Part shown: positions 9,062-59,001 of the stretch, in pieces
Position numbering within the stretch: position 1 is the first letter of the stretch
How the letters are laid out: every line of letters starts with the position of its first letter
Position numbers and translations under genes: made by a program
DNA from: Methylophilus rhizosphaerae
Lineage (GTDB): Bacteria > Pseudomonadota > Gammaproteobacteria > Burkholderiales > Methylophilaceae
Assembly (NCBI RefSeq): GCF_900100975.1
Contig: NZ_FNFX01000001.1
Location: forward strand, 561,820-625,819
Direction of reading: 5' to 3'
Length of the DNA stretch: 64,000 nt
The notes under the pieces: generated by a model
Database searches by the model: none
What the model was told of the DNA's origin: nothing
Seen by the model: the letters and a program-made list of their open reading frames with translations, nothing else

Positions 9062-9099
9062 ATGAAAAAAGGCTTTGCAATTGCAAAGCCTTTTTTCAT
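9062..9099. terminator. 38-bp perfect palindrome, bidirectional terminator between pmbA and mlaA
   Basis: The 38 bases form an uninterrupted inverted repeat centred between 9080 and 9081. Each arm ends in six A (9065-9070) or six T (9091-9096), so either strand gives a GC-containing stem followed by a U-run. It sits between the convergent genes pmbA (plus) and mlaA (minus) and should stop both transcripts. Confidence 0.85.
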
Positions 9100-14641: not shown

Positions 14642-14669
14642 AAAAAAGGGCGCGCCTGCGCCCTTTTTT
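14642..14669. terminator. Bidirectional terminator between mscL and corC
   Basis: Six A, a GGGCGC arm, a four-base loop, the GCGCCC arm and six T. The symmetrical A and T runs serve both convergent genes, mscL (plus) and corC (minus). Confidence 0.88.
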
Positions 14670-23748: not shown

Positions 23749-23773
23749 CCTCAGCCAGCTTCTACTGAATCAT

Positions 23774-23801
23774 AAAAAAGCCAGTTTCGACTGGCTTTTT
23801 T
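23774..23801 (+). terminator. Terminator after the parvulin gene
   Basis: Seven-base-pair stem (AGCCAGT/ACTGGCT) with a TTCG tetraloop, flanked by A-run and T-run. It closes the yciB-yciI-bolA-ppi transcript before feoA. Confidence 0.88.
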
Positions 23802-23898
23802 ATTTGCCGGGCATCCATCATTATCCTCCCGCGTGCAATGATTCACGCAGCCTGCCTGTACAGAAGCATTTCTTTGCCAGGCAATCTGAGATAAAATC

Positions 23899-40048: not shown

Positions 40049-40079
40049 AAAAAACCGCATGGGAACATGCGGTTTTTTT
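40049..40079 (+). terminator. Terminator after the membrane haem protein
   Basis: Thirteen-base-pair stem AAAAAACCGCATG/CATGCGGTTTTTT with a GGAA loop. It closes this gene before sucC. Confidence 0.9.
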
Positions 40080-55237: not shown

Positions 55238-55428
55238 GCCCGTATCTTAACAGGTTTAAGCAAATATTTGCTGGCACTTTCGCCGGTCACTGGCTGTGGC
55301 ACAGGACTGTCAGTCAACTCCGACGCATGATTGCGCGATTCTCCGACTGTATCCCGGAATGGTAGCCTTTAAGATGCCTACAGGTCCCATGACCGACAGA
55401 ATGAATCTTAAATCTTAGGAGAACCGGC

Positions 55429-55632
55429 ATGAATAAAGATATTTTCGAGGGTAACTGGAAACAACTGAAAGGCAAAGTGCAGGAGCAATGGGGCAAGCTG
55501 ACCAATGATGACCTGGATGTCATTGAAGGCAAGCGCGATCAGGTTGCCGGTAAAATCCAGGAGCGTTATGGCATCAGCAAAGATGAGGCCGAAAAGCAGA
55601 TCAAAGCCTGGGAAAAAGACCACCTGCATTAA
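55429..55632 (+). CDS. CsbD family stress protein
   Basis: A 67-residue soluble protein of the CsbD family, small general-stress proteins of unknown biochemical function. The pattern MNKDIFEGNWKQLKGKVQEQ, then KLTNDDLDVIEGKRDQVAGKIQERYG and the closing KAWEKD is diagnostic. ATG 55429 follows AGGAGAACCGGC. The 191-base region between lolC and this gene should hold both promoters. A strong hairpin follows at 55653-55683. Confidence 0.92.
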   Translation: MNKDIFEGNWKQLKGKVQEQWGKLTNDDLDVIEGKRDQVAGKIQERYGISKDEAEKQIKAWEKDHLH

Positions 55633-55652
55633 TGGGGTGATCGACCTCCGGT

Positions 55653-55683
55653 GAAACAGGGCAAGCACAGCTTGCCCTGTTTC
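55653..55683. terminator. Strong bidirectional hairpin after csbD
   Basis: A fourteen-base-pair perfect stem (GAAACAGGGCAAGC and its complement) with an ACA loop, lying between the convergent csbD and the 75-residue gene. U-tracts are short, so termination efficiency is uncertain. Confidence 0.7.
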
Positions 55684-55709
55684 ATGGCATCTCTCCCAGG
55701 AAGATGCAA

Positions 55710-55937
55710 TTAAAAGCCAGCGTCCCGGATGACGTCAATCTCCAGGCACTCAAGCGCCCTGGCCCGTTCATAGTATTTAATAGCCCTGTGCTGGAATTTT
55801 TCGGCAAGCCGGTCAGTCCGTGCTGCAAGGGTTTTATCCCTGGCAACCACATTGAACAGGTAAGACGCAATGCGTTGATGAATCTGGGCATTCGCATACA
55901 GATCACTCAGCAGTTTTTTCTTTGCTATTGGTTTCAT
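55710..55937 (-). CDS. Small helical protein of unknown function
   Basis: A 75-residue basic, fully helical-looking protein that I do not recognise. It lacks a signal peptide. Two helices can be drawn (KKKLLSDLYANAQIHQRIASYLF and LAARTDRLAEKFQHRAIKYYERARAL), the second amphipathic. ATG 55937 follows the strong ribosome site GGGGAGG, which argues that it is a real gene. It is convergent with csbD and divergent from the XRE regulator. Confidence 0.65.
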   Translation of the reverse strand: MKPIAKKKLLSDLYANAQIHQRIASYLFNVVARDKTLAARTDRLAEKFQHRAIKYYERARALECLEIDVIRDAGF

Positions 55938-56023
55938 ATCCTCCCCTTACTATCCGTCATCCATTTACCTGATATTTTTATAAATACTGGCAGGCTTGCG
56001 TACAAGGTCAGCCAATACATAAA

Positions 56024-56053
56024 AACCCGTTTTGGGATATTCTATAACGGGTT
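56024..56053 (+). promoter_or_regulatory. Inverted repeat AACCCGTT-N14-AACGGGTT upstream of the XRE gene
   Basis: Perfect eight-base arms at 56024-56031 and 56046-56053, separated by 14 bases, 15 bases before the regulator start. This is a plausible operator for the helix-turn-helix protein encoded next to it. Confidence 0.45.
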
Positions 56054-56056
56054 ATT

Positions 56057-56096
56057 TAATTTTGGCTATGCCAAGCTCTATACACAGCCAAAATTA
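56057..56096 (+). promoter_or_regulatory. 11-bp inverted repeat enclosing the XRE start codon
   Basis: Arms TAATTTTGGCT (56057-56067) and AGCCAAAATTA (56086-56096) are perfect complements, and the 18-base loop opens with the ATG at 56068. In RNA this would form a hairpin at the start site, and as DNA it could be a second operator. The gene also lacks a Shine-Dalgarno sequence. Confidence 0.5.
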
Positions 56097-56313
56097 TCAA
56101 CTCTTCAGGGAAATGCTGGTGAATGCACGTTTGGCTGCCGGCCTGACACAGGTTGAACTGGCACGTCAAATCCAGAAGCCGCAAAGCTATGTCTCAAAAT
56201 ACGAGCGTGGAGAGCGCAGGGTGGACTTTACCGAATTTATACACATCGGCACCATTCTGAAAATTGACCCCCGGCAGTTTATTGCGGAATATCTTCAGAA
56301 AACGTCTGCATAA
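56068..56313 (+). CDS. XRE-family helix-turn-helix regulator
   Basis: An 81-residue single-domain DNA-binding protein. The helix-turn-helix runs from AAGLTQVELARQIQKPQSYVSKYERGERRVD (near residues 21-51), ending in a family tail FTEFIHIGTILKIDPRQFI. The N-terminus MPSSIHSQNYQLF matches a common subfamily and decides the start at ATG 56068, although there is no ribosome site and the codon lies in a hairpin loop. Such regulators often repress their own gene. The next gene starts 32 bases later. Confidence 0.85.
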   Translation: MPSSIHSQNYQLFREMLVNARLAAGLTQVELARQIQKPQSYVSKYERGERRVDFTEFIHIGTILKIDPRQFIAEYLQKTSA

Positions 56314-56345
56314 TCGCCGACAGCCAAGGAGGGAGGGATATCATT

Positions 56346-56561
56346 ATGGAAAAACGCACATTGTTTAAGCACCTGCTGGATACCTGGCAATCGTTGGACG
56401 GCGTATGGCAGCAAGATGCTTTTCTATTGTGGATGTGCGTGATAGTGGTGGTAATGCTGTTTTCCAGCGGTGCCGTTATTGGCTTATTCTTGCAATCCCT
56501 GTGGGGAATTTTTACCAGCGGCCATCAACGGACAGAGACTGACACCAGCCCTCATCCATGA
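56346..56561 (+). CDS. Small single-pass membrane protein, unknown
   Basis: A 71-residue protein with one strong hydrophobic segment (about 27-50, LLWMCVIVVVMLFSSGAVIGLFL) flanked by an amphipathic N-terminal part and a polar C-terminal tail (GHQRTETDTSPHP). It begins behind an exceptional ribosome site (AAGGAGGGAGGGA). It follows the XRE regulator on the same strand, so it may be part of that unit. No homologue is recognised. Confidence 0.65.
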   Translation: MEKRTLFKHLLDTWQSLDGVWQQDAFLLWMCVIVVVMLFSSGAVIGLFLQSLWGIFTSGHQRTETDTSPHP

Positions 56562-56571
56562 AAAACAAAAG

Positions 56572-56826
56572 CTATACAGACTCCAGAAACTGCCTGATTG
56601 CGCTCAGTTCACGCGAGATATCTGCCGCATAATCCTCATACTGGTGCCCGCCGGTGCGGGCATACCAGTACTTGCTGTTCCAGGTATCGCCTTCAATTTT
56701 ATGCAACACGGCATGTATCCAGTTGGCCGTGCTATCGCTGTAATCCTGCGCAATCTGGTGCGCAGCATCCCAATCACCGGCCTGGGCAAATGTCACAGCC
56801 TCCAGCAAGTGCGCGCGGTTAGACAT
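56572..56826 (-). CDS. Conserved small cytoplasmic protein of unknown function
   Basis: An 84-residue protein. It starts in the gloA end with an eight-base overlap and so is probably translationally coupled. It is rich in Trp, His and Tyr, with a helix pair resembling a single tetratricopeptide-like hairpin ([22 protein letters not shown]) and the segment [22 protein letters not shown] recall similar short proteins beside glyoxalase genes but cannot assign a function. Confidence 0.7.
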
Positions 56827-58045: not shown

Positions 58046-58591
58046 TCAGGCGAATGCCTGCACCGGCTGCAGCAAATGATAAAACACCTGCCCGGCTTTG
58101 CCGGACTTCACCACTTGCCACTGCCCGTCGGATTTTAACGCATATTCGGCCTCCACATACAACCAGCCCTCTGCGGACAGGTGTGCTGCCAGTAGCGGCA
58201 ACAACTTATCCAGCCACTGTTTATGGTAAGGCGGATCGCAGAAAATCACATCGTACCGCTGCAGGTTCTGCGCCAGGAACTGCAAGGCATCCGCTTGCCG
58301 GATATCGGCCTGTGTCGCACCAAGCAGGCGCTGGTTCTGTAATAAGGCCTGAAAAGGCGCCTTGGCAAATTCCAGCAAGGTGGCTTGTCGCGCATGACGT
58401 GACAGTGCCTCAAACCCCAATGCACCGGTGCCGGCAAACAAATCCAGGCAGGTTTTACCGGTCAGGTCCTGGCCCAGCCAGTTAAACAGGGTCTGGCGCA
58501 CGCGGTCCGAGGTCGGGCGCAAACCTTCCGCATCAGGGAATTTCAGTATCCGGCTACGCCAAATTCCAGCATTAAGACGAACTTGATTCAT
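58046..58591 (-). CDS. rsmD: 16S rRNA (guanine966-N2)-methyltransferase
   Basis: Methylates G966 of 16S rRNA. The 181 residues contain LFAGTGALGFEALSRHA near 50-66 (AdoMet site) and the catalytic FCDPPYHKQW. Upstream motif PTSDRVRQTLFNWL is also diagnostic. It belongs to the rsmD-coaD-fdx-gloA transcript. The 158-base gap to the divergent membrane gene holds both promoters. Confidence 0.96.
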   Translation of the reverse strand: MNQVRLNAGIWRSRILKFPDAEGLRPTSDRVRQTLFNWLGQDLTGKTCLDLFAGTGALGFEALSRHARQATLLEFAKAPFQALLQNQRLLGATQADIRQADALQFLAQNLQRYDVIFCDPPYHKQWLDKLLPLLAAHLSAEGWLYVEAEYALKSDGQWQVVKSGKAGQVFYHLLQPVQAFA

Positions 58592-58976: not shown

Positions 58977-59001
58977 AAAAGCCGGTAATTTACCGGCTTT
59001 T
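58977..59001. terminator. Terminator between the PLDc_N gene and the M16 gene
   Basis: Stem AAAAGCCGGTAA with its complement, nearly without loop, symmetrical A/T runs. It serves convergent transcripts. Confidence 0.8.

Follow-up and report, generated by a model that had tools for sequence, protein, structure and literature searches.

What do two perfect inverted repeats do at the start of a small XRE regulator gene of Methylophilus rhizosphaerae, and is the start codon hidden in an RNA hairpin? An earlier note on this DNA, a stretch of 64,000 nucleotides that we call the window, had read the two repeats as layered self-control, in which the regulator binds an operator and an 11-bp hairpin masks translation. 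In our analysis the striking hairpin is probably incidental, and it is the plain dyad beside it that belongs to an operator kept across several phyla, which corrects a misleading reading. The locus is very likely a solitary, self-contained C-protein-like autoregulatory module (an XRE gene with a C-box in its own promoter), with no restriction-modification (R-M) genes found nearby. Its features are as follows.

56024-56031 and 56046-56053: arms of dyad 1, AACCCGTT and AACGGGTT, perfect over 8 bp, with 14 bases between them
56024-56038, plus strand: left half-operator (OL-like), AACCCGTTTTGGGAT, conserved among 67 distinct sites
56039-56053, plus strand: right half-operator (OR-like), ATTCTATAACGGGTT, less conserved than OL, with which it makes dyad 1
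56032-56037, plus strand: putative, weak -35 element TTGGGA inside OL, inferred from its 17-bp spacing to TTTAAT
56055-56060, plus strand: putative -10 element TTTAAT at operator positions 32-37, the same operator position as TATAAT in three relatives (L055, L057, L059)
56057-56067, plus strand: left arm of dyad 2, TAATTTTGGCT, overlapping the putative -10 element; not conserved
56067-56068, plus strand: predicted transcription start, 7 nt after the -10 element, leaderless or nearly so
56068-56313, plus strand: gene of an 81-residue XRE/HTH_3 protein, C-protein-like, closest named relative C.EcoRV
56086-56096, plus strand: right arm of dyad 2, AGCCAAAATTA, within the coding sequence; not conserved

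The protein itself is small, has a single domain of the XRE type and is homologous to C proteins already known. It carries an HTH_3 domain (Pfam, 5.8e-11), and homology favors the ATG at 56068-56070 as its start. Profile searches matched ten PDB entries: 3f6w, 3eus and 2ef8, then C.AhdI (4.5e-8) and C.BclI (2.1e-7), with which the XRE fold is shared by sequence profile, and five further HTH entries. Among PADLOC models, Control_protein matched at 1.8e-7 and RmrA models scored better (7.1e-9). C.EcoRV is 44.6% identical over residues 14-78. Five E. coli plasmid records (H22-H26) match the regulator with the same identity over the same residues; in one of them, pLG13, a DNA adenine methylase, an HTH regulator and the EcoRV endonuclease are annotated in a row, and we regard this HTH regulator as either C.EcoRV itself or a copy. 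Counting the genome itself, homologues were detected in 16 of 187 family genomes at a threshold of 0.001, in 20 of 399 order genomes at 1e-15 and in 16 of 369 class genomes at 1e-15. Public genomes contributed 52 homologue loci plus one viral contig, and 44 plasmid records matched at 1e-8. No match to the regulator was found in phage records (tblastn at 1e-5). The nearest relative found, in the family genomes, has 61% protein identity.

The second perfect inverted repeat of the earlier note is indeed present at 56024-56053. On its own it would pass as chance, as 7.7% of 2000 dinucleotide shuffles of 55951-56150 contain at least one dyad with arms of at least 8 bases. However, upstream regions of the homologues share a block AACC[CT]-N-TTTTGGG[AT]T, followed by its mirror half, at the very place of dyad 1. 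Judged by its letters, the site can be read as two 15-bp near-palindromes side by side, with dyad 1 as the outer symmetry of the pair; at the sequence level, the regulator thus has in its own promoter the two adjacent dimer sites of a C-box. Of the 100 homologue loci with upstream sequence, 77 score above the 99.5% point of shuffled regions with the operator matrix, a partly circular figure since the matrix was fitted to the same rows that it scores. Absent from this set are the copies of the own locus, the gloA loci L111-L131, the loci with weak matches only (L015-L020, E about 1e-5 to 1e-3) and L108, which lacks upstream sequence. A matrix trained only on the 27 R-M-linked loci gives 23.0 at 56024, the next best site on both strands of the 64-kb window reaching 5.2; the training sites had been located with an earlier matrix that included the window site. 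With the R-M-trained matrix the operator of the EcoRV C gene, which is in neither training set, scores 27.4. Operator positions 1, 4 and 15 (A, C and T) are invariant in the 67 distinct sites.

Operator and protein also vary together. Among 69 distinct operator-helix pairs (identical pairs counted once; L013 and L062, which have no readable helix, excluded), 47 of the 50 with Arg47 have A at operator base 2, against 0 of the 19 with another residue there (Fisher 3e-14, shared ancestry not corrected for). In the tree, L088, L091 and L104, which combine a non-Arg residue with T2 and have weak operator scores (5-9), group with L072 (Arg, A2) at 99/96; as far as the sequences tell, this is one well-separated switch of residue 47 and base 2. 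C.EcoRV, with Gln47 and A2, is an exception to a strict Arg47 rule. The link provides a handle on operator specificity in the EcoRV-type C family. Taken together, the conserved C-box and its covariation with a protein residue support, for the upstream dyad, the operator binding that the earlier note had proposed. Half-site letters may differ within the same architecture: L078, L079 and L171 have AGTC...GACT operators and TQ[TS]F helices. On a viral contig (L073, IMGVR_UViG_3300037465_000627) there is a relative whose operator is of the kind seen at the window and whose GTG start lies 46 bases further along. At the window, AGCCAA (56010-56015) and TTGGCT (56062-56067) are mirror images about the operator center, giving a 58-base near-palindrome (72%).

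In the own genome, the full-operator pattern with up to 3 mismatches matches the own site alone. A looser pattern with at most 3 mismatches has 75 matches in 16 genomes (73 for the reversed control pattern); its five matches in the own genome (two in the control) comprise the operator on both strands and three extra places, each with 3 mismatches. The half-site with 1 mismatch has 6 matches in the own genome and 6 in the control. These counts are close to the control counts, and we therefore claim no regulon. In viral contigs, one exact operator pattern had no match.

How the gene might be transcribed is suggested by the position of the start codon. We defined as class A the homologues whose start codon lies at most 49 bases from the operator start (28 distinct loci; identical keys were counted once and the keys differ slightly between analyses, so that class A comprises 28, 26 or 27 rows). 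The distance is 43-46 bases in 25 of the 28, and 44 at the window. Operator or start assignments are doubtful for L071 and L092 (distance 28) and for L081, L088, L091, L099, L104 and L106 (scores 5-12). The Shine-Dalgarno sequence is missing, as the earlier note had stated: the best match to AGGAGG 16 to 5 bases before the start is 1/6, and none of the 28 class A loci has a match of at least 5/6. TTTAAT also occupies operator positions 32-37 in L096, and by our reading CATAAT stands at the equivalent position upstream of C.EcoRV. When operator positions 26-39 of 27 class A loci are compared with the -10 consensus, the best hexamer agrees at no more than 3 or 4 of 6 bases in 20 loci; over all 27, the gap from this hexamer to the start is 6-11 bases in 23 and 2-3 in four. 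A consensus promoter scanner reported no plus-strand promoter at the regulator start. Since 7 bases separate the putative -10 element from the ATG, transcription is predicted to start at 56067-56068. The best reading of the -10 position, the near-fixed spacing and the absent Shine-Dalgarno sequence is that the regulator mRNA would be leaderless or nearly leaderless. For Csp231I and AhdI the C transcripts are described as leaderless, and so is the C-dependent transcript of PvuII (PMC4824078, PMC5333194, PMC2997769). On EcoRV the first two sources disagree: its C transcript is not leaderless according to PMC5333194, whereas PMC4824078 places leaderless transcripts in the C.EcoRV family. On the minus strand, a promoter-like TAGCCA-18-TAGAAT (56068-56039) overlaps the operator and faces the neighboring frame P0002, and such sites occur at chance level; overlapping divergent promoters are described for EcoRV (PMC5333194).

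C proteins are described as activating from a distal site and repressing once the proximal site fills (PMC6237814, PMC5333194, PMC12707154). By analogy with EcoRV, the weak promoter would be stimulated by a dimer on OL (56024-56038) and switched off when OR (56039-56053) takes up a second one, a circuit that would hold the regulator at a set level; the transcript, from about 56067-56068, would carry its AUG at or near the 5' end. We infer regulator binding, activation followed by repression and this transcript start from the resemblance to known C systems. The apparent match to the EcoRV geometry makes activation-then-repression the likeliest circuit. The proteins share 45% identity over residues 14-78, the EcoRV operator matches (27.4) and, by our reading, its distance to the -10 element is the same. 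There are also differences. The EcoRV C gene sits between the methylase and endonuclease genes, whereas no R-M genes were found at the window, and the ATG that we take as its start lies about 62 bases after the operator start (the annotated start being upstream of the operator), compared with 44 bases at the window. AhdI likewise has two adjacent dimer sites in its own promoter (PMC5333194), and the window operator has a sequence different from that of the GACT-type C-box reported in other C systems. For C.Kpn2I, PMC6237814 notes XRE relatives without R-M systems; unlike at the window, the motif described there is a different one, lies in or next to the reading frame and acts by a roadblock mechanism. 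Two other ideas were dropped. One was pure repression from OL, which overlaps the -35 element; EcoRV appears to share this arrangement and, as described, is activated from the distal site. The other took the missing Glu after Gln28 (SQE) for a lost activation contact, and C.EcoRV lacks this Glu as well (LSQGE).

Is the module really solitary? Frames of the window scanned between 49675 and 60350 correspond to ExbD, a ComEC-like competence protein, an ABC transporter, an FtsX-like permease, CsbD, a glyoxalase, a ferredoxin, Cons_hypoth95 and peptidase M16. For none of the 13 neighboring frames scanned in this interval is the best match by Pfam and/or PADLOC a family of type II endonucleases or DNA methylases, so that linkage to a restriction endonuclease and/or methyltransferase is not seen among the neighboring frames tested. 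The frame at 58046-58591 is Cons_hypoth95, its D12 methylase match being weaker. Genome-wide, the one family N6_N4_Mtase matches at four places; two of these exceed the cut-off, at distances of about 80 and 133 kb.

Among the 77 operator-bearing loci, 27 have R-M homologues within their flanks, as judged by similarity to six seed proteins. The closest parallels are L029 of Nitrospira (BamHI-like endonuclease, 2.4e-54, and an N6_N4 methylase), L027 of Nostoc (N6_N4 methylase, 1.9e-58) and L045 of Crocosphaera (PADLOC type II endonuclease, 4e-69). These and other BamHI-like or cyanobacterial R-M loci have a near-identical recognition helix, PQSYVSKYERGERR, and the same operator core; their C-like gene adjoins endonuclease and N6_N4 methylase genes, unlike that of the window. 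The presumed endonuclease of L055, itself one of the six seeds, matched no Pfam or PADLOC family. In L172 (Aeromonas plasmid pAV7K), the C-like gene overlaps the start of a gene for a 295-residue hypothetical protein, at the place expected for an endonuclease gene.

The other 50 of the 77 loci, with no R-M homologue seen by the six seeds, include short flanks (e.g. L049, L065, L068), two cyanobacterial loci and some loci with PP[YFW] motifs; because flanks are short in several loci, some may be misjudged as lacking R-M genes. We picked 14 relatives from the 50 and scanned their 58 neighboring frames. At 1e-5, PADLOC found two systems, PDC-S09 (four models, one member each) and mad2, the latter at L010:1837-2715, where one would expect the PrmA counted once by Pfam. 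Among the Pfam families listed (25 of 42), single members match PDDEXK_3, HipA_C and the N-terminal domain of the anti-restriction factor ArdC, the last in one frame neighboring these solitary-looking relatives. The tree contains two groups without R-M genes seen, one of 8 rows (98/95) and one of 6 rows that includes the window protein (90/85), and both keep protein and operator among differing neighbors. When the neighboring frames were clustered, the only partners that came back repeatedly were those of the R-M-linked loci and of near-identical cyanobacterial contexts. These observations suggest stand-alone EcoRV-type C genes in several betaproteobacterial lineages. Our literature search on solitary C genes found none, the 2009 systematic C-protein survey being outside its coverage, and a related search returned only a Mycoplasma paper.

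Stand-alone C genes raise a testable question: does a resident C protein block the entry of matching R-M systems? A resident protein of this kind would act on an incoming system because R-M-linked relatives have a matching operator and recognition helix. If an incoming system had the same C-box, the protein might then switch on that system's endonuclease ahead of DNA methylation, and the R-M system would fail to establish. Pre-expressed C protein is described as blocking establishment of the PvuII system (PMC12707154), and related C proteins as able to cause mutual exclusion (PMC3874152), which makes such a resident veto a bold but testable idea. That solitary C modules are vetoes of this kind, domesticated exclusion devices selected on their own, is a speculative proposal that we consider rather doubtful; if true, it would explain why the module is conserved among differing neighbors without a partner gene.

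A rival reading is that the gene is the decaying leftover of a lost R-M system and has no present function. This would agree with the lack of R-M models among the neighboring frames tested and with the view across the genus: in 20 other genomes, nothing within the flanks of the gloA locus matches the regulator, P0002 or CsbD. Yet the regulator is intact in its reading frame, recognition helix, both half-operators and spacing, and both groups of relatives without R-M genes seen retain protein and operator; decay is therefore unlikely.

We give a similarly small chance to the regulator serving a neighbor, be it the divergent P0002 or, downstream, P0003 (56346-56561, possibly a small membrane protein). 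P0003 lies on the same strand, 32 bases after the regulator, and could be cotranscribed with it. However, an AGGAGG-like sequence precedes its own start and, in the 20 genus relatives, its homologues accompany gloA in 13, the regulator in none (homologues of the glyoxalase and ORF84 are there in all 20); the missing recurrent partner likewise argues against a neighbor as target. As to the context, 55238-56345 holds the CsbD gene, P0002 and the regulator between the FtsX-like permease gene and P0003. P0002 has one weak match in 186 other family genomes. Beyond P0003, the genus relatives that were inspected have an ORF resembling, by eye, PEP carboxylase.

We favor, then, the solitary autoregulatory module, and what is left to account for is dyad 2. 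Its perfect 11-bp arms do surround the ATG at 56068, as the earlier note described, with a loop of 18 whose first bases are the ATG (56068-56070). An arm of at least 11 occurs in 0.15% of the 2000 shuffles of 55951-56150. The earlier claim that two such dyads are unlikely by chance stands for the pair (both with arms of at least 8 in 0.55% of 2000 shuffles) and fails for dyad 1 alone (7.7%). Across the whole window, 7 perfect repeats with arms of at least 11 and loops of 3-30 are seen against a mean of 0.5 in 20 shuffles. The six others have arms of 11-17 and loops of 3-4 (55652-55684, 9062-9099, 14642-14669, 23772-23803, 40049-40078 and 58977-59001) and are probably terminators. Dyad 2 is locally unusual, yet about one such repeat is expected per 130 kb.

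Layered control by the operator and an RNA hairpin hiding the AUG would require a second upstream promoter and a longer transcript with both arms. PvuII offers a precedent, its longer transcript having a C-independent start 26 nt upstream of the C gene (PMC2997769), and the RNA of 56057-56100 alone is stable (-11.6 kcal/mol, z -3.4, 1/200 shuffles as stable). The longer 56050-56130 is not unusually so (z -0.62, 45/200 shuffles as stable), although the stem is present in the predicted fold, and RNAs from 56065 and 56068 are less stable than 200/200 and 198/200 shuffles, respectively. The left arm overlaps the predicted -10 element, so that the predicted transcript, from about 56067-56068 on, would not contain it; most of the hairpin would then fall outside the RNA, and we regard it as probably incidental. 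Conservation of the arms with compensatory changes, a check put forward in the earlier note, was not borne out: in register, 25 homologues form a mean of 3.6 of the 11 pairs (range 1-7; equal base frequencies would give about 4 of 11), and arm identity is 4-9 of 22, so that the stem is not kept at these positions. The earlier note had named such a lack of arm conservation in close relatives as a refutation, though here the nearest relative has only 61% protein identity. Start regions of class A show a mild excess of stems (mean score 11.7, against 8.65 in shuffles; p ≤0.05 in 6 of 28, window included) that would favor layered control, but their positions vary and we read the excess as weak. 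At PvuII, disruption of putative hairpins before the endonuclease gene is described as having no significant effect (PMC2997769). Translational masking by the 11-bp hairpin is thus very unlikely. An Rfam scan of 55600-56600 returned nothing reaching the gathering score. A compact 5-bp dyad, TTGGC-TAT-GCCAA (56062-56074), was rejected, as among 26 sequences it has 5 pairs only in the window, 4 in L037 and 0-3 elsewhere.

It is equally hard to credit dyad 2 as a second DNA operator over the start codon, for the regulator or another protein and acting as a roadblock as in C.Kpn2I: Kpn2I-type C-boxes are described in or near the reading-frame start (PMC6237814) and TTTTGGC resembles, by eye, TTTTGGG of OL, but the dyad has no operator-matrix match (56024 being the sole window site above 5.2) and no equivalent sequence at its positions in the 25 homologues.

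Translational control would be argued more readily for nine relatives (L003, L013, L014, L062-L065, L068, L069) than for the window. Their start codon lies 64-66 bases from the operator start and is immediately preceded by a small hairpin, whose arms differ between relatives (TACCGG/CCGGTA, AAGGCAA/TTGCCTT and TACAAGACCT/AGGTCTTGTA are examples); in six of the nine the hairpin has p ≤0.01 against shuffles.
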